From contig NZ_MTQO01000050.1 in assembly GCF_001984155.1 (NCBI RefSeq), positions 1 through 64,000 of the forward strand: a stretch of DNA of 64,000 nt, in the 5' to 3' direction. This DNA comes from Actinosynnema sp. ALI-1.44 (GTDB lineage: Bacteria > Actinomycetota > Actinomycetes > Mycobacteriales > Pseudonocardiaceae). The position numbers and the translations under genes were made by a program. Below the pieces are notes generated by a model. It did not search any database and had not been told where the DNA came from. It was given only the letters and a program-made list of their open reading frames with translations. This document shows, piece after piece, positions 10,188 through 21,621 of the stretch (the first letter of the stretch is position 1; each line of letters opens with the position of its first letter).

Positions 10188-10736
10188 ATGCTTCCCCACG
10201 CCCGTACGGGTGTTCACGTCCTGTCCGCACCCGCCGTCATCCGGCAGCTGATCCGCTCGTCGGGGGTCGGCCCGGACGACCTGGTGATCGACTTCGGGGC
10301 CGGTCCCGGCACGATCACCGCGCCGCTGGCCGCCACCGGGGCACGCGTCCTCGCCGTCGAACGGAACGCGGCGTTCGCCGGCAAACTCACGCGGCGGTTC
10401 GCCGACCAGCCGCTCGTCAAGGTGGTGCACGCCGACCTGCGCACGGTCCCGCTGCCGAGCCGGGACTTCTCCGTGGTGGCCAACATCCCGTTCGCACTGT
10501 CCACTGTGCTGCTCCGCAGGCTGCTCGACCGGCGGCGACGGTCGCTCGTCGCCGCCGACCTGGTGGTCGAATGGGGCTTCGCCCAGCGGATCGTGGCCGC
10601 GCGGACACCGGAGACCGCCAAGTGGGCCGAGAAATACGAGATGCGAGTCGCGAGACGGATCCAGCGGACGAACTTCCGCCCGGCCCCGCGCGTGGACTCG
10701 GCGCATCTGGTGATCAGACGACGACCACGAAACTGA
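10188..10736 (+). CDS. Short Erm/KsgA-family rRNA adenine N6-methyltransferase
   Basis: 182 residues from ATG 10188 (GGAG 10 nt upstream). A class I SAM fold is visible: motif I VIDFGAGPGTIT, acidic motif II end VLAVERN, VVHADLRTV, and the Erm-type motif IV NIPF at residues 99-102, where Erm proteins have NIPY or NIPF. The C-terminal FRPAPRVDSAHLVI strand is typical of KsgA/Erm. It is much shorter than resistance Erm enzymes (240-340 residues), with a truncated C-terminal domain, so 23S A2058 methylation and macrolide resistance are possible but unproven. It stands alone, and no macrolide biosynthesis genes are visible. Confidence 0.75.
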   Translation: MLPHARTGVHVLSAPAVIRQLIRSSGVGPDDLVIDFGAGPGTITAPLAATGARVLAVERNAAFAGKLTRRFADQPLVKVVHADLRTVPLPSRDFSVVANIPFALSTVLLRRLLDRRRRSLVAADLVVEWGFAQRIVAARTPETAKWAEKYEMRVARRIQRTNFRPAPRVDSAHLVIRRRPRN

Positions 10737-10801
10737 GCTGAACCGTCGCGGACCGTTCACTCGTATGGATGGTGAGGCGCGCACTTCGGGAAGGGCATCG
10801 G

Positions 10802-11680
10802 ATGCGCAACACGCACAGGAAGATCACCAGGAAGAAGGTCATCATCGCGGCGGCGGGCGTCGCACTGGCCGCGGCAGCGGCCTTCACCATCCCCCAGGCC
10901 AGTGCCAAGGACTCCAGGGCCGTGCCGAGCCTGGACGAGATGCGCGGGATGACGGGCACCGCGTGGGCGGTCGACCCGGACACCGGCCAGACCCTGGTCA
11001 CCGCGGACAGCACCGTCAACACCGACCAGTGGAGCGCGTTGGTGTCCCACAGCAACGACAAGGTGAAAGTGCAGCGGGCGCCCGGCAAGTTCAGCCTGTT
11101 CGCCGAAGGCGGGGACGCGATCTTCGCCGGTGGGTCACGGTGTTCGCTCGGCTTCAACGTGACCATGCGCAACGGCGCACCCGGAATCCTCACCGCGGGC
11201 CACTGCACGGCGGGTGGCCGCAACTGGTCGACCGCGCAGGGCGGCCGGGCGGTCGCCACAGTCCAGTCGTCGACGTTCCCCGGCAACGGCGACTTCGCCT
11301 TGCTGTCGTACAACAACGCCGGCACCCAGGCGCCGAGTGCCGTCGACACCGGCGGCGGGCGGCTCGTGCAGATCACCCGGGCCGCGAACGCGCGCGTGAA
11401 CCAGAACGTGCTGCGCATGGGCAGCACGACCGGGTTGAAGGGCGGCCGGGTGACCGCGTTGAACGCGGCGGTGAACTACCCGGAGGGCCGGGTCACCGGG
11501 CTCATCCAGACCACGGTGTGCGCCGAACCCGGTGACAGCGGCGGTCCGCTGTTCACCCAGGACGGCACCGCGCTCGGGCTCACCTCGGGCGGATCCGGCA
11601 ACTGCACCGCTGGCGGCGTCACGTTCTTCCAACCTGTCACCGAGCCGCTGCAGGCCTTCGGCGCCCGAATCGGCCAGTAA
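10802..11680 (+). CDS. Secreted chymotrypsin-like serine protease (S1 family, streptogrisin-like)
   Basis: 292 residues. A basic N-region and hydrophobic core (VIIAAAGVALAAAAAFTIPQASA) form the signal peptide, followed by a pro-region or propeptide remnant and a protease domain. The catalytic triad is visible: His134 in LTAGHC, Asp164 in GDFALL and Ser246 in EPGDSGGP. Cysteine pairs around RCSLGF/GHC and TTVCAEPG/SGNC match the streptogrisin disulfides. The start has GGAAGGG upstream. It is shorter in its pro-region than streptogrisin B/C precursors. A terminator-like hairpin follows the stop. The protein should act outside the cell on proteins. Confidence 0.9.
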   Translation: MRNTHRKITRKKVIIAAAGVALAAAAAFTIPQASAKDSRAVPSLDEMRGMTGTAWAVDPDTGQTLVTADSTVNTDQWSALVSHSNDKVKVQRAPGKFSLFAEGGDAIFAGGSRCSLGFNVTMRNGAPGILTAGHCTAGGRNWSTAQGGRAVATVQSSTFPGNGDFALLSYNNAGTQAPSAVDTGGGRLVQITRAANARVNQNVLRMGSTTGLKGGRVTALNAAVNYPEGRVTGLIQTTVCAEPGDSGGPLFTQDGTALGLTSGGSGNCTAGGVTFFQPVTEPLQAFGARIGQ

Positions 11681-11682
11681 AG

Positions 11683-11728
11683 CTCGTGAGTGGTTACCGG
11701 GGTTCTCACCCTGGTAACCACTCACGAG
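11683..11728. terminator. Bidirectional hairpin between the protease gene and tuf3
   Basis: A perfect 16-bp inverted repeat: CTCGTGAGTGGTTACC at 11683-11698 and its complement at 11713-11728, with a 14-nt loop. It sits between two convergent genes, 3 nt after one stop and 8 nt before the other, and so probably terminates both. Confidence 0.8.
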
Positions 11729-11735
11729 AGGTTCT

Positions 11736-12917
<1,182 letters not shown>

Positions 12918-12944
12918 CGTTGCCTGGTTTTCTGGAAGCTGGGA

Positions 12945-12988
12945 CGCGGAACCCGCGAAGCCGACAACCCTCCTCCTCGGGTTCCGCG
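12945..12988 (-). promoter_or_regulatory. Hairpin in the tuf3 5' leader
   Basis: CGCGGAACCCG (12945-12955) pairs perfectly with CGGGTTCCGCG (12978-12988) over 11 bp, 28-71 nt upstream of the tuf3 start on the transcribed strand. It leaves a 22-nt loop. Its place in the leader suggests attenuation or another RNA-level control of tuf3, or a terminator before an internal promoter. The tuf3 ribosome binding site itself is weak (AGG). Confidence 0.4.
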
Positions 12989-13109
12989 GAGGAAGGTGCG
13001 GAAGGGAGGAGGGTCAGCTATCCAGTGCTGCCAACACGGATGCCGACAACGCGCTCAGCAGGTTCAGGCCTGCGAGCGTCGCGAAGTCGGACATCGGGAA
13101 CACAGCGAA

Positions 13110-13132
13110 GGACTGTAGCTCAGCCACAGTCC
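13110..13132 (-). terminator. Hairpin after the Asp-box protein gene
   Basis: GGACTGT (13110-13116) and ACAGTCC (13126-13132) form a 7-bp stem with a 9-nt loop, 20 nt beyond the stop of the upstream minus-strand gene. This probably separates that gene from tuf3. Confidence 0.5.
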
Positions 13133-13151
13133 TCCGCCAAACGGTTTTCCG

Positions 13152-14231
13152 TTACCTCAGGGTGAGCTTGGCGATCCGGCCCTTCTCACCGGCGGCCCAG
13201 CAACTGGCGTCCCGGCCGCAGTCGACGGTGTCGAAGCTGCCGGCGTCGAACTGGAACCAGTGGTTGCCGTTGTCGAGGCTCACGTCGCTGCCGGTCGGCC
13301 CGACCGCGAGGATCGCGAACGGCAGGTAGGGGACGTAGGTGGCGCCGGAGCGGTAGCCCGCCGGGGCCTTCGCGGCCTTCGTCCACGTCTTGCCGCCATC
13401 GCTGGTGCGGGCCACGGCGTCCTTGGTGGGTTTGGCCGGGTCGTAGTCGCCGCCGATCGCGATGCCGTTGCGCGAGTCGCGCAGCGCCACCGAGAACACG
13501 CCCGCGCTCTCGCCGCTCTGCAGCGGGGTGTCGCTCACGGTCCAGGTCAGGCCGCGGTCCCTGGAGTGGAAGACGCGGGCCTTGGCGTCGCCGCCGGTCG
13601 CGATCCACGCGTCCCGGGAGCCCGACGTGACCAGGCACTGGCCGCTCGCGGCGAACGCGAACTCCTTCGGCTGGACGGCGGGCATTCCGTCGCCGGGCAG
13701 GAGCTTCCAGCTCTTGCCGCCGTCGGTGGTGGACAGGATGCGGAACTTGCCGTCGACCGGGTCGCTCAGTGCGAGACCGTTGCGGCGGTCGAAGAAGGCC
13801 ATGCAGTCGTAGAACGCCCGCGCGTCGGTGTTGCGGAAGGACTCGGTCCAGGACCTGCCGCCGTTCGTCGTGCTGTAGATGCGGGAGTCCGGGCCGTTGC
13901 CGATGGTCATCGCCACGGCCGTGTTCGCGTCGAACGCCTCGATGTCACGGAACTGCAGCGCCTCGGCACCCGGCGGTCCGACGCTGGCCCACGTCCGGCC
14001 GCCGTCGGTGGTCCGCAGCACCGTGCCGCCTGTCCCGCCTGCCCACGCCGTTCGGCCGTCCACAACGGACAAGCCGCGCAGCCGTGCGTCCGTCCCGGTC
14101 GGCGTGAGCTGCCACTTCGGCCCGTGCGCCCCAGCCGGGGCCCCGATCGCCGGTGTCGCCGCCGCCGGTGTCGCGCCCACTACGAGCAGTGCGGCCGTGC
14201 ACACACTGGATAAAGCACCGATCCACCTCAT
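13152..14231 (-). CDS. Secreted Asp-box (BNR/Ycf48-like) beta-propeller protein
   Basis: 359 residues from ATG 14231. An N-terminal signal peptide (ALSSVCTAALLVVGATPAAA) is followed by repeats of the sialidase Asp-box form SxDxGxTW: TTDGGRTW, TTNGGRSW, TTDGGKSW, SRDRGLTW, TSDGGKTW and LDNGNHWF. Six to seven such repeats make a beta-propeller. There is no sialidase FRIP motif, so it is not a classical sialidase; Ycf48-like oxidoreductase annotations are common for this family but function is unknown. It is exported and stands alone, divergent from the DM13 gene. Confidence 0.8.
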   Translation of the reverse strand: MRWIGALSSVCTAALLVVGATPAAATPAIGAPAGAHGPKWQLTPTGTDARLRGLSVVDGRTAWAGGTGGTVLRTTDGGRTWASVGPPGAEALQFRDIEAFDANTAVAMTIGNGPDSRIYSTTNGGRSWTESFRNTDARAFYDCMAFFDRRNGLALSDPVDGKFRILSTTDGGKSWKLLPGDGMPAVQPKEFAFAASGQCLVTSGSRDAWIATGGDAKARVFHSRDRGLTWTVSDTPLQSGESAGVFSVALRDSRNGIAIGGDYDPAKPTKDAVARTSDGGKTWTKAAKAPAGYRSGATYVPYLPFAILAVGPTGSDVSLDNGNHWFQFDAGSFDTVDCGRDASCWAAGEKGRIAKLTLR

Positions 14232-14342
14232 GCGCGCGGAAGTTACCTGATGGTTCGCGCACGGGCCACCGCCGAGAGTTTTAAGAATCCGGTAAGAGGT
14301 GTTTCGCCGCCTTTCAGCCGCCGTGGACGTTCTAATGGACGC

Positions 14343-14894
14343 ATGCGAGCACTGTTTCGGAGGAAGATCACTTGGGCGGCGCTGGTCGTGGTCGCCGTGG
14401 CGGGTGCGTTCGCGCTGTGGGCGTTCCAGCCGTGGCGGCTGTTCACCAGCAGCACGATCGACGAGGCACTGCCGGTCGCCACCACAGTCACCACGGGCAC
14501 CACGGGGAGCACTGCGCCCAGCGCTCCCCCTGTCAGTGCTCCCCCTGCCGGGCCGAAAGAACTGGCGTCCGGCTCGTTCGTCACACAGGAACACGCCACG
14601 TCCGGCCACGCCGCCGTGCTCGAACTGCCGGACGGGCAACGGGTCCTGAGACTGACCGGGCTGTCCTCGTCGGATGGGCCGGATCTGCACGTCTGGCTGA
14701 CCGACGCGACGGCGGGCGGCGACTGGTTCAAGTACGACGACGGCCGCCAGGTCAAACTCGGCGACCTCAAGGCGACGCACGGCAACCAGAACTACGCCAT
14801 CCCGGCGGGAACCTCACTGGACGGCCTGCGCAGCGTGGTCATCTGGTGCGACCGGTTCAACGTGGCGTTCGGCTCGGCCCCGCTTCAGCTGTAG
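14343..14894 (+). CDS. Membrane-anchored DM13-domain protein
   Basis: 183 residues from ATG 14343. An N-terminal transmembrane anchor (ITWAALVVVAVAGAFALWAF) precedes a Thr/Ser/Pro-rich linker and a C-terminal DM13 domain (about residues 80-183) with GHAAVLEL, VLRLTGLSSSDGPDLHVWL and NQNYAIPAGTSLDGLRSVVIWCDRFNVAFGSAPL. The cysteine in VIWCDRFN is the conserved DM13 residue proposed to take part in redox chemistry. It is divergent from the Asp-box propeller gene across 111 nt, so the two may share a promoter region. An in-frame extension to 14250 lacks a ribosome binding site. Confidence 0.8.
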   Translation: MRALFRRKITWAALVVVAVAGAFALWAFQPWRLFTSSTIDEALPVATTVTTGTTGSTAPSAPPVSAPPAGPKELASGSFVTQEHATSGHAAVLELPDGQRVLRLTGLSSSDGPDLHVWLTDATAGGDWFKYDDGRQVKLGDLKATHGNQNYAIPAGTSLDGLRSVVIWCDRFNVAFGSAPLQL

Positions 14895-14899
14895 ATCCC

Positions 14900-15400
14900 T
14901 CAGTTGTACGACAGCGTGTCGCCTCGTTCGAAGTCCAGCAGGAACCGCTTGCGTTCGATGCCGCCGCCGTAGCCGGTGAGGTCACCGGTCGAGCCGACGA
15001 CCCGGTGGCACGGCACGATGATGCTGATCGGGTTCTTGCCGTTGGCCAGGCCGACCGCACGGGACGCCGTCAGCGTCTTGCCGAGCCGCAGCGCCAGCTC
15101 GCCGTAGGAAATCGTTTCGCCGTAACGGATGTCGCACAGCGCCTGCCACACTGTGCGCTGGAAGTCCGTGCCGTGGAACGTGATCGGCACGTCGAACTCG
15201 GTCCGCTCCCCGGCGAAGTACTCGTTGAGCTGCTCGACGGCCTGGCCTAACGGCTCCGGGTCGCGGTGACCGAACGTCTCCTGCGACGGCAGGTACCGCT
15301 GCCGCTCCATGTACACCCCGCTCAGCACACCGTCCGTCGCGACCAGCGTGAGCTGACCGACCGGGCTGTCCATCACGGTGTGACACCTCATCTGTGACAT
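14900..15400 (-). CDS. ogt: Methylated-DNA--protein-cysteine methyltransferase
   Basis: 166-residue suicide repair protein that removes O6-alkyl groups from guanine. The active site IIVPCHRV places the acceptor Cys at residue 131, followed by the GYGGGIERKRFLLDFE substrate loop. The DNA-binding helix region FQRTVWQALCDIRYGETISYGELA is present. The single-domain length fits Ogt rather than Ada. It is monocistronic: xylB precedes it on the same strand but a hairpin separates them. Confidence 0.95.
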   Translation of the reverse strand: MSQMRCHTVMDSPVGQLTLVATDGVLSGVYMERQRYLPSQETFGHRDPEPLGQAVEQLNEYFAGERTEFDVPITFHGTDFQRTVWQALCDIRYGETISYGELALRLGKTLTASRAVGLANGKNPISIIVPCHRVVGSTGDLTGYGGGIERKRFLLDFERGDTLSYN

Positions 15401-15411
15401 GGTGCCAGTCT

Positions 15412-15444
15412 GATTCCCGCGAGCCGCGCGGGCTGGCGGGAATC
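15412..15444 (-). terminator. Hairpin after xylB
   Basis: GATTCCCGC (15412-15420) pairs with GCGGGAATC (15436-15444), a perfect 9-bp stem with a 15-nt loop, directly after the xylulokinase stop and before ogt on the same strand. Confidence 0.6.
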
Positions 15445-15449
15445 GGCCA

Positions 15450-16727
15450 TCACCATGCCGGGTACTGGCCCGTCAGTGCCCACGTCGCCTGGCGCGCGGC
15501 GCCGACCGCGACGTATTCGGCCGTCTCGGGGACCTCGACGGGCACGCCGAAGACCTCCGGCGCGATCGCCTGCACGGCGGCCGACCGCGCACCGCCGCCG
15601 ATCAGCAGAACCCGTTGCGCCGCAAGCCCTGCCGTGCGCAAGGCGGTCAGCCCGAAGCCGAGACCGCCCAGCATCCCCGCGACCGCGGCACGGGCCACGT
15701 TCTCCGGCGTCATGTTGTCGCGCCGCATGTTCAGCAGCGATCCGGTCGCGTCCGGCAGGTTCGGTGTCCGTTCACCGTCCAGGTAGGGCACGAACTCCAG
15801 TCCGCCGGTGTCCTTGGCCGACAGCGCCAGATCGTCGAGTTCGGACAGTTCGACGCCGAGCATCCGCGCGGCGGCGGTGAGCACGCGCGCCGCGTTCAAC
15901 GTGCACACCAGCGGCAGGAACCTGCCTGTGGCGTCGGCGAATCCGGCCACCGCGCCGGTGTCGTCCGGGGTGATCTCGTCGGCGACGCCGAACACCGTGC
16001 CGCTCGTGCCGATCGAGACGACCGCGTCCCCGGCCTCCAGCCGAAGGCCCAGTGCGGCCGCCATGTTGTCGCCCGTGCCTGCCGAGACGAGCATCCCGCC
16101 GGGTGTGCGCCCGGCGGGCTCGTCGGGCGCGAGCACCCGCGGCAGCCCGGGAACCCGGCCGAAGGCCTTGGTCAGGATGTCCTCGCGGTAGACGTCCTGA
16201 CTGGCGGAGTAGTAGCCGGTTCCGGACGCGTCGCCGCGGTCGGTCACCATCTCGCCGGTGAGTTTCCAGGTCAGCCAGTCGTGCGGCAGCAGAACGGTGG
16301 CCACGCGGGCGGCCAGGTCCGGTTCGTGTTCGGCGAGCCACCGCAGTTTGGTCACGGTGAAGCTGGCGACCGGCACCGAGCCGACCGCTTTCGCCCACTC
16401 CCCCGGGCCGCCGAGTTCGCGGGTCAGGTCCGCCGCGGCGTCGGCCGAGCGGGTGTCGTTCCACAGCAACGCGGGCCGGACGACCTCGTTGTTCTCGTCG
16501 AGCGCGACCATGCCGTGCTGCTGGCCGCCGACACCGAGCGACATCACGCCGTCGAGCACGCCGTCGGCAGTGGCCTCCTGGAACGCACGCCACCACTCAT
16601 CGGGGTGAACTTCGGTGCCGTCCGGGTGGGGCGCCCTGCCTTCTCGCACCACCTGACCCGTCTCCGCGTCGCACACCACGACTTTTGTGGACTGGGTTGA
16701 GGAATCCACGCCCGCGACCAACGCCAT
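15450..16727 (-). CDS. xylB: Xylulokinase (FGGY family)
   Basis: 425-residue carbohydrate kinase that phosphorylates D-xylulose for entry into the pentose phosphate pathway. Visible motifs: [13 protein letters not shown] (phosphate loop), [34 protein letters not shown], and the ATPase signature region [24 protein letters not shown] and [16 protein letters not shown]. It is about 30-50 residues shorter at the C-terminus than most xylulokinases, ending at [10 protein letters not shown], but the catalytic core is complete. No xylose isomerase or transporter is adjacent. Confidence 0.9.
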
Positions 16728-19503: not shown

Positions 19504-19950
19504 ATGTTTACCCTGGTGAGAAAGATCGGTGCGGCGGCAGCCACCGCCGCGGTACTCCTGAGCGCCGCGTGTACGCAGGTCAGCGAGGGCAAACAGGTGC
19601 AGATCCCGACCTTCGGCGGCACCCCGCCCGACACCGCGGCAACGCGGGCGGAAACCACGTCCTGGACGCCGACGTGGGAGGCGAGCATCCCCACGGTCGC
19701 ACCGGCGATCAAGCCGACGACCAGCAAAGCCCCCGTGCCGAAGCCGACGACGACGACGAAACCGCCAGTGGTCACGACGACGACCACCACGCGACCGACT
19801 TTCACCATCCCCCAGATCCCCGGTGTGCCGTTCGCCCAGGAAGGCGCCCGCTGCCTCCAGGAAGGCGCCGTCGCCATCACCAAGTCGGGATCGCCGCTGG
19901 TCTGCACGCGGTCGGGCCGCGGTGACGCGCTGCGCTGGCGCAAACCCTGA
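19504..19950 (+). CDS. Small lipoprotein with Thr/Pro-rich linker
   Basis: 148 residues. The N-terminus (LVRKIGAAAATAAVLLSAACT) ends in a lipobox LSAAC, so the cysteine should be lipidated and the protein anchored to the outer face of the membrane. A long Thr/Pro/Lys linker (about residues 50-95) leads to a compact C-terminal segment with GVPFAQEGARCLQEGAVAITKSGSPLVCTR, a pattern of two cysteines also found at the end of many exported actinobacterial proteins. Function unknown. It is divergent from the oxidoreductase gene. Confidence 0.75.
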   Translation: MFTLVRKIGAAAATAAVLLSAACTQVSEGKQVQIPTFGGTPPDTAATRAETTSWTPTWEASIPTVAPAIKPTTSKAPVPKPTTTTKPPVVTTTTTTRPTFTIPQIPGVPFAQEGARCLQEGAVAITKSGSPLVCTRSGRGDALRWRKP

Positions 19951-20033
19951 CAGGCGCGTCACTCACGTAGCGGTACGGGCGTGAAAACGTCGTAGTTACC
20001 GTGAAACCGGGTGCGGCCTCGAAGGAGGTAACC

Positions 20034-20105
20034 ATGCAAGGCACATGCGGATGCTGTGGTTCGTGCAGCGGCCCCGGATGTGGGTGTTGCTCGAGCTGCT
20101 CGTGA
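20034..20105 (+). CDS. 23-residue cysteine-rich micropeptide with duplicated CGCC(G/S)SCS motif
   Basis: An ATG at 20034 is preceded by a near-perfect ribosome binding site, GAAGGAGGT, with 4 nt of spacing. It opens a 24-codon frame that ends at TGA 20103-20105. Eight of 23 residues are cysteine, and the peptide is a short MQGT start followed by two near-identical octets, CGCCGSCS and CGCCSSCS, joined by GPG. All cysteine codons are TGC/TGT. Possible roles are a miniature metallothionein-like metal binder, a precursor of a modified peptide, or a cysteine-codon leader that senses cysteinyl-tRNA. It ends 139 nt before the polysaccharide lyase gene and 83 nt after the lipoprotein gene. No homologue is known to me. 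Confidence 0.65.
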   Translation: MQGTCGCCGSCSGPGCGCCSSCS

Positions 20106-20166
20106 CTCCAGGCACCGTCCCCTATCGGCCCCTCGTTCCGGTGATCGGGACCTGGGGCCGCAGCTG

Positions 20167-20244: not shown

Positions 20245-21621
20245 ATGATGCGACGCAGTCCTGCCCTGCTCACCGGCCCGCTGGCCCTGTGCCTGCTCGC
20301 CGGTCTGACACTGCTGCCCGGCGAGGCCACCGCGGCGACGGTACGGGTGAACAACCTGTCCGAACTGCAAACCGCGTTGAACTCCGCGAAACCCGGTGAC
20401 CGGATCGAACTGGCCGACGGCAGCTACACCGCGACCAGCGCGATCCAGATCAAGAAGTCCGGCACGGCGAGCGCACCCGTCACGGTGACCGCGGCGAACA
20501 CCGGACGCGCGGAAATCCGCGGCTCGACCGGGTTCTCGTTCGCGGGCGGGGTGAACAACGTTGTGCTGCAAGGCTTCAACCTCCGGCACGGCGGTTCGAT
20601 GTCGATCCCGTCGGACGCGCACCACATCCGGCTGACCCGCAACACCGTTCAGCTCAGCGGAGACGGCAACTGGGTCACGGTGAACGGCGACGACGTGGAA
20701 GTCGACCGCAACACCTTCCAGAACCGCAGCACCGCGGGCGTCTTCCTGCAGATCGCCGGACCGAGCGACGACGTCGCCAAGCGCACCAAGATCCACCACA
20801 ACTACTTCTACAACCACAGCTTCAGCGGCGCGAACGGCGGCGAGTCGATCCGCTACGGCTACAGCCACAAGCAGTCGTACTCGTCCGGCGGGTTCGTGGA
20901 GTACAACCTGTTCGAGAAGGCCAACGGTGACGCCGAGGCGATCTCGGTGAAAGCGTCCGAGACCACCGTGCGCTACAACACCATCCGCGACAGCAAGGGC
21001 TACATCGTGCTGCGGCACGGCAACCGCAACACCGTCGAGGGCAATCTCATCTACGGCAACTCCGGGATCCGCTTCCACGGCAACGACCACAAGATCATCA
21101 ACAACTACGTCGCCTCATCCGGTCAACGCGCGATCGTGTTCGGCAAGGGCTCCGAGGCCGACAGCGGCCCGACCAGCACCGGCCACGACCGCCCCGACCG
21201 CGTCACCGTCGCGTTCAACACCGTGCTGGGCACCAGCGCCGTCATCGACAGCGACGGCGGCGACTTCAAGCCCAAGGACTGCGTGGTGGCCAACAACATC
21301 ATCGTCGGCACCGGCGGCCCCCTCGTCGACATGGCCAGCGGCTCGACAGTGCGCTACGAAGGCAACATCGCCTGGGGCGGCAGCGCAGGAATGCCGAACG
21401 GCTACCGCTCGGTGGACCCCAAGCTGGGGCGCGACTCGTACGGCATCTCCCGGCTGGCAGCGGGCAGCCCCGCGATCGACACCGCCGCGGGCACGTACTC
21501 GTACGTCACCAAGGACATGGACCTGCAGACCCGGTCCGGCAAGTTCGACGTCGGCGCGGACGAACTCGGCGGCTCCCGCAAGCCCCTGAACAAGGGTGAT
21601 GTCGGGCCGTCGGCTGCCTAA
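20245..21621 (+). CDS. Secreted polysaccharide lyase-like right-handed beta-helix protein (PL6/chondroitinase B type)
   Basis: 458 residues from ATG 20245. The signal peptide is PLALCLLAGLTLLPGEATA. The mature N-terminus VRVNNLSELQTALNSAKPGDRIELADGSYT is the typical opening of PL6 alginate lyase/chondroitinase B proteins. Parallel beta-helix rungs follow (IRLTRNTVQL, VEVDRNTFQN, TKIHHNYFYN, TVRYNTIRDS). The segment NGDAEAISVKASETTVRYN and the following LRHGNRNTVEGNLIYGN contain the residues expected near the catalytic Lys and Arg and the metal site of PL6. Substrate could be alginate or a sulfated glycosaminoglycan. It acts outside the cell. Confidence 0.82.
   Translation: MMRRSPALLTGPLALCLLAGLTLLPGEATAATVRVNNLSELQTALNSAKPGDRIELADGSYTATSAIQIKKSGTASAPVTVTAANTGRAEIRGSTGFSFAGGVNNVVLQGFNLRHGGSMSIPSDAHHIRLTRNTVQLSGDGNWVTVNGDDVEVDRNTFQNRSTAGVFLQIAGPSDDVAKRTKIHHNYFYNHSFSGANGGESIRYGYSHKQSYSSGGFVEYNLFEKANGDAEAISVKASETTVRYNTIRDSKGYIVLRHGNRNTVEGNLIYGNSGIRFHGNDHKIINNYVASSGQRAIVFGKGSEADSGPTSTGHDRPDRVTVAFNTVLGTSAVIDSDGGDFKPKDCVVANNIIVGTGGPLVDMASGSTVRYEGNIAWGGSAGMPNGYRSVDPKLGRDSYGISRLAAGSPAIDTAAGTYSYVTKDMDLQTRSGKFDVGADELGGSRKPLNKGDVGPSAA

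Follow-up and report, generated by a model that had tools for sequence, protein, structure and literature searches.

The window, the whole stretch of 64,000 nucleotides analysed here, carries a frame of 23 codons between the genes for a probable lipoprotein and a polysaccharide lyase (Table 1). It opens with an ATG at 20034, ends with a TGA stop (20103-20105) and specifies eight cysteines arranged as two CxCCxxC halves with a period of 11 residues. The first-pass annotation had given the sequence and coordinates of this 23-residue peptide exactly, and the doubled cysteine spacing that it described was borne out, as was its remark that the peptide is too short for normal gene finding.

Table 1. 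Features of the peptide locus in the window
Feature	Position	Strand	Remarks
Upstream neighbour, probable lipoprotein	19504..19950	+	Judged by its N-terminus; nothing matched in Pfam; context, outside the unit; kept in genome G005
Conserved promoter element TCACTCACGTAGCGGTACG	19959..19977	+	Leave-one-genus-out: 0/100 shuffles reach the window's score
-10-like hexamer TACCGT	19997..20002	+	22 nt downstream of the element's GGT; putative promoter function
Ribosome binding site GAAGGAGGT	20021..20029	+	AACC spacer; ATG 4 nt downstream
Eight-cysteine mini-protein MQGTCGCCGSCSGPGCGCCSSCS, 23 codons + stop	20034..20105	+	From the sequence, conservation in 7/8 genomes of the genus and pN far below pS
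Terminator-like hairpin 3' of the stop	20126..20160	+	Putative terminator function
Downstream neighbour, polysaccharide lyase	20245..21621	+	Pfam Chondroitinas_B, E 6.3e-32; start chosen by eye; context, outside the unit

On both strands of the 64-kb window this is the sole ORF of 15-45 codons that combines at least 30% cysteine with a GGAGG site. Dropping the GGAGG requirement added no further ORF within the same limits of length and cysteine content, and 60 dinucleotide-preserving shuffles of the window produced 0 such cysteine-rich ORFs. A GGAGG-like site also lies upstream of the start in most relatives.

Conservation and distribution of the peptide

A 301-base query matched all eight genomes of the genus (Kibdelosporangium), and the peptide is present at the same locus in seven of them. 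It is missing there from the eighth, G005, which keeps the gene upstream as well as the lyase and the region 5' of it, with no peptide in between. Across 21 pairs of Kibdelosporangium sequences compared at 21 shared codons, pS was 0.48 and pN 0.027, and variation was purely synonymous in 14 of the 16 variable codons. The claim of a selected peptide, which the first-pass annotation had staked beforehand on a related frame at the same place in close relatives and on synonymous and nonsynonymous changes not accumulating equally, thus held on both counts: the frame is there in 7/8 genomes, and pN far below pS reveals purifying selection on the protein. We conclude that the 23 residues make up a genuine mini-protein, strongly conserved within a single bacterial family.

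Elsewhere in the G005 genome (C1:7694718-7694861) we observed a seven-cysteine copy, MNHCGCSSCTGPGCGCCGSC; about 35-40 bases upstream of it the promoter model finds a match (E 0.054).

A profile built from five sequences of the genus matched 159 of 297 family genomes in 35 of 46 genera (E 0.1). With a 26-member profile the figures rose to 186 genomes and 39 genera (E 0.01), where the 186/297 includes E-values up to 0.01 and 39 family hits, besides the loci of the genus, were confirmed by sequence; genus counts use the labels assigned in our analysis. In the 111 family genomes left unmatched by the 26-member profile, the gene may be lost, may be present in a divergent form or may escape a profile of 21 positions. 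In a sample of the order, 25 of 249 genomes matched, every one in the Pseudonocardiaceae, and in a sample of the phylum the one match among 396 genomes was the window's own. As far as sampled, the stand-alone gene is therefore a trait of the Pseudonocardiaceae.

Forty hits were picked across genera, and 39 contained the core described below (L047 lacks it). These 39 loci, the window and six loci of the genus make up the 46-locus set used throughout, in which the labels g8 and g8b denote one genus, so that 24 labels stand for 23 genera; L068 comes from genome G024 of genus g18. Named loci with the peptide include Lentzea, Saccharomonospora, Saccharopolyspora and Longimycelium. Genomes of g8 (Lentzea) mostly give two matches each. 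Their copies are of two kinds: one (L040, L041, L079) lies beside DUF6319 and TAP-like hydrolase genes and is without the promoter element, and the other (L073, L074) lies at other places and has it.

The core, C-[GSN]-C-C-x-x-C-[ST]-G-[PS]-x-C-G-C-C-x-x-C, spans 18 residues and was found in 45 of the 46 loci; L066 has one extra residue, with eight cysteines in 19. All cysteines, G9 and G13 are invariant and P10 is kept in 43/45. The residues between the core cysteines are solely G, S, T, A, N, K, D and P, with no histidine and no aromatic residue (45/46 loci). The N-terminus before the first cysteine, by comparison, is unconserved and ranges from 2 to 17 residues. Searches of profile and structure libraries gave nothing: 0 Pfam or NCBIfam families for six members at E 1, 0 PHROGs matches for the window's peptide at E 0.1, and no PDB sequence matched by profile A3 at E 10. 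AlphaFold2, given 24 relatives, returned neither a fold nor secondary structure (mean pLDDT 58.5), a model outcome that is uninformative either way on a metal-organised fold.

Promoter element and hairpin across the family

The loci share the element TCnCYCGnGYRGYGGTRnC, followed after 19-20 bases by TAnnnT, which itself lies 31-50 bases before the start codon. With a leave-one-genus-out matrix, the score of the locus was reached by five or fewer of 100 dinucleotide shuffles at 41 of 46 loci (by none at 40), the instances having been picked with the all-loci consensus, so that the procedure is not wholly blind. The five loci that fall short of this are three copies from g8 and the two from g3.

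A promoter model, R1, was used to scan the Kibdelosporangium genomes. The site at the peptide was the top hit in seven of the eight (E 7e-5 to 7e-4), the high scores of the window's site and three others being by construction, since R1 was built with them. The next hit in those seven genomes had an E-value of 0.037 or worse (0.12 in the window's own genome). In G005 the top hits (E 0.009 and 0.0125) lie at other places and the peptide's site scored E 0.054. Searched as a 26-mer with no more than 3 mismatches, the element has one site in the window's own genome. What the scan brings out is the want of equal sites elsewhere in the Kibdelosporangium genomes. Because there are further, weak R1 hits and 150 of about 10,700-16,000 first-look candidates were scored per genome, the element may nonetheless be shared by a small regulon. 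Compared by eye with the sites of BldD, Zur, CsoR and CRP, it presumably fits none of these.

Beyond the stop codon, the best 40-nt energy of the window's hairpin is -25.3, against -14.4 ± 3.0 for shuffles (z -3.6). A hairpin at this position has z < -2 in 35 of 46 loci, with mononucleotide shuffles as the control. The promoter element, the ribosome binding site and the hairpin suggest that the peptide is made from a short one-gene transcript of its own.

The same core within larger proteins

A genome scan confirmed 12 loci, one of them outside the Pseudonocardiaceae, in a metagenome-assembled genome (MAG) of a Thermoplasmata archaeon. Here (L100:3980-4831) the eight-cysteine core lies in an N-terminal extension of a 283-residue AhpC/TSA peroxiredoxin, which starts MADKEKDCNCCDECTGPGCGCCEDCAPRMP; for the best 60 of the 124 solved relatives, the alignment begins no earlier than residue 28. 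Within the archaeal phylum 1 of 292 genomes matched, namely the MAG itself; the fusion, known from this one MAG, is therefore a rare or local event.

In a scan of viral contigs, 6 of 83 stretches were confirmed (L143-L148), and a second viral scan confirmed three loci, every one on contigs already found. Within long ORFs, these stretches carry either the core itself or a form whose first half reads CCDNACGNC or CGGDCCDSC. By PHROGs and Pfam, L144 and L146 are head-maturation-protease-like and L143 and L147 weakly so (E 0.0038 and 0.0015); L145 reads as portal/Mu-F/RNA-ligase. L148 received no PHROGs or Pfam assignment, and the stretch adjoining its core resembles phage capsid maturation proteases.

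Searching the bare module against annotated phages and plasmids gave no match, for which the low-complexity filter of BLAST may be the cause. The archaeal N-terminus matched plasmids in its peroxiredoxin part alone (8 records, query residues 22-46). Whole phage proteins matched 2 and 17 phage records over a stretch next to the core (query residues 241-316 and 289-353), with the cysteine core itself unmatched among those listed (15 of the 17).

In our judgement, rather than by calculation, chance recurrence of eight placed cysteines and a GP turn is unlikely, and the present data fit descent and convergence alike. Its occurrence in the archaeal peroxiredoxin and in six viral-contig proteins gives the core the look of a portable module. 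We propose, tentatively and as the less probable side of the question, that the 18-residue CxCCxxC[ST]GPxCGCCxxC acts as a metal-thiolate or redox module, both portable and self-sufficient, which occurs on its own with its own promoter across the Pseudonocardiaceae, fused to a peroxiredoxin in an archaeon and embedded in head-maturation and portal-type proteins of phages.

Genomic neighbours and candidate functions

By a crude gene caller, the next downstream gene is convergent in 35 of 46 loci and on the same strand in ten, with none called in one; in two of the ten same-strand loci (L055 and L068) tblastn placed a convergent hydrolase in between. A TAP-like hydrolase is convergent to the peptide in 23/46 loci (12 labels), and a DUF6319 protein is encoded upstream in 14/46. 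Same-strand downstream ORFs in 23 loci, considered as an operon that the frame might lead, were set aside as antisense readings of the convergent TAP-like hydrolase. An NADPH-dependent FMN reductase gene is divergent in 7/46 loci from four genera (L048, L049, L050, L056, L060, L062, L077), MsrB is encoded within 8 kb in 11/46 loci (8 labels; more than 3 kb away in 4 of the 11), an AhpC/TSA peroxiredoxin adjoins L066, and methionine-synthase-like genes lie near L073, L074 and L078. Neither a metal-resistance gene nor a regulator gene is a common neighbour in the 46 loci; the recurrent neighbours of known theme are redox or sulfur genes, and we take the redox colour of some of them as a hint only.

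The peptide has the sequence traits of metallothioneins: it is small and rich in cysteine, with CxC and CC clusters and a core free of histidine and aromatic residues. The nearest working parallel would be the fungal copper metallothioneins. Those of Neurospora crassa and Agaricus bisporus have 26 residues and seven cysteines in the pattern CxC-x5-CxC-x3-CxC-x2-C (PMC4755600). They resemble the peptide in being cysteine-rich, in their length of about 25 residues, in Gly/Ser-type spacers and in CxC motifs, but the peptide does not fit their pattern, having eight cysteines as CxCCxxC-x4-CxCCxxC; and copper binding is known for the fungal proteins, whereas the peptide is known here from its sequence. 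The mycobacterial MymT is likewise a small, cysteine-rich actinobacterial protein with CxC; it has 4.9 kDa, binds 4-6 Cu(I) and is under RicR (PMC6337107). The peptide is about half its size and has a different promoter element, and no relation between the two was detected. SmtA and the Pseudomonas metallothioneins are bacterial metal-thiolate proteins, which is the role that we propose for the peptide; they are longer and use histidine ligands, as in the Zn3Cys9His cluster of PflQ2 MT, and smtA lies divergently to smtB, which encodes its repressor (PMC7387436), in contrast to the histidine-free core and the absence of a common regulator neighbour at the peptide loci. A fitting bacterial counterpart of the peptide was not found in the open-licence literature.

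We lean, with little more than even confidence, towards the peptide being a stand-alone miniature metal-thiolate protein, and of the three candidates named in the first-pass annotation the 'minimal metallothionein' still ranks first. A core organised by metal is suggested by the eight thiolates, the small spacers and the recurrence of the module, and going by sequence the peptide may at most work like a metallothionein. Its own promoter, a strong ribosome binding site and the hairpin past the stop would yield a short transcript and hence the peptide, whose two CxCCxxC halves, jointed by an [ST]GPx turn, would enclose one small metal-thiolate cluster. The metal, most likely Cu(I) or Zn(II), would be bound in the cytoplasm, and the predicted physiological role is to buffer it; since oxidised thiolates release metal, it would be tied to the thiol redox state. 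This reading is favoured by the purifying selection, by relatives in 186/297 family genomes, by the eight-cysteine core without histidine or aromatics, by the shared promoter element and hairpin, by the parallel size and make-up of the fungal proteins (PMC4755600) and by reuse of the core in the archaeal peroxiredoxin and six viral-contig proteins, as would be expected of a self-organised module. Against it stand the AlphaFold2 result without a fold, neighbours with redox or sulfur rather than metal-resistance themes, an element that by eye matched no metal regulator, the seven-cysteine copy in G005 and the 111 unmatched family genomes.

Its main rival, which we consider rather unlikely, is a thiol-redox mini-protein whose cysteines cycle between thiol and disulfide as an electron donor or as a sink for oxidants (peroxide, methionine-sulfoxide or quinone stress), metal being minor. 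The fusion to a peroxiredoxin suggests such a role, as do the FMN reductase, MsrB and peroxiredoxin neighbours, but neighbours vary among genera, MsrB is over 3 kb distant in four of its 11 loci, 23/46 loci have the TAP-like hydrolase as convergent neighbour instead, and CxCC clusters suit metal clusters equally well. The presence of the core within head-maturation-protease-like and portal-type proteins would fit a structural or adaptor module, in which the cysteines would hold Zn(II) or an iron-sulfur cluster and so shape a small knob for docking to another protein, maybe also in phage head proteins; we think this improbable, the stand-alone protein having little besides the core for docking and its N-termini being variable. 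A short sequence rich in Cys, Ser and Thr could also be the precursor of a ribosomally made, modified peptide (RiPP), in a family rich in secondary metabolism. This proposal of the first-pass annotation found no support, as the residues ahead of the first cysteine are unconserved and no modifying enzyme was present among ten neighbouring proteins scanned, and we regard it as very improbable.

Least probable of all, and near excluded, is the idea, also raised there, of a cis-acting leader that controls the lyase by sensing cysteinyl-tRNA through its cysteine codons. In 5/7 Kibdelosporangium loci, the window included, the place of the lyase is taken by a same-strand gene of 458-470 aa (Pfam assignment for the window's gene), with a hairpin in between, as such a leader would have it. 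However, G005 has the lyase without the peptide, G003 and G007 keep the peptide next to a different, convergent gene, and, with a same-strand gene downstream in 10/46 loci and a convergent one in 35/46, the family has no fixed downstream partner; because of these convergent neighbours, and because lyase and peptide each occur without the other, the leader idea is unsupported. Nor is selection confined to the cysteine codons, as Gly and Pro (G9, G13, P10) are conserved like Cys. The title of Canestrari et al. 2020 reportedly applies the word leaderless to the polycysteine leaders of mycobacteria. The cysteine-responsive polycysteine ORFs of mycobacteria resemble the peptide in being short and cysteine-rich and in coming from an actinobacterium, but are leaderless and act in cis on a downstream operon (PMC9094748). 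In the case of the peptide, by contrast, a ribosome binding site precedes the start, the protein sequence is conserved and the gene that follows is not a fixed one.

Taken together, a gene found in most genera of the Pseudonocardiaceae, a family known for antibiotic producers, lies below ordinary gene-calling length, and its common element points to one regulator shared by most of the family. If the peptide binds metal, it would be a bacterial protein of 20-23 residues at the lower size limit of metallothioneins. Should the portable module hold true, few known metallothionein-type proteins would be shorter, and the core would represent a domain type undescribed in the profile libraries searched. 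One core in the peptide, the peroxiredoxin and the phage head proteins makes the three cases jointly testable.
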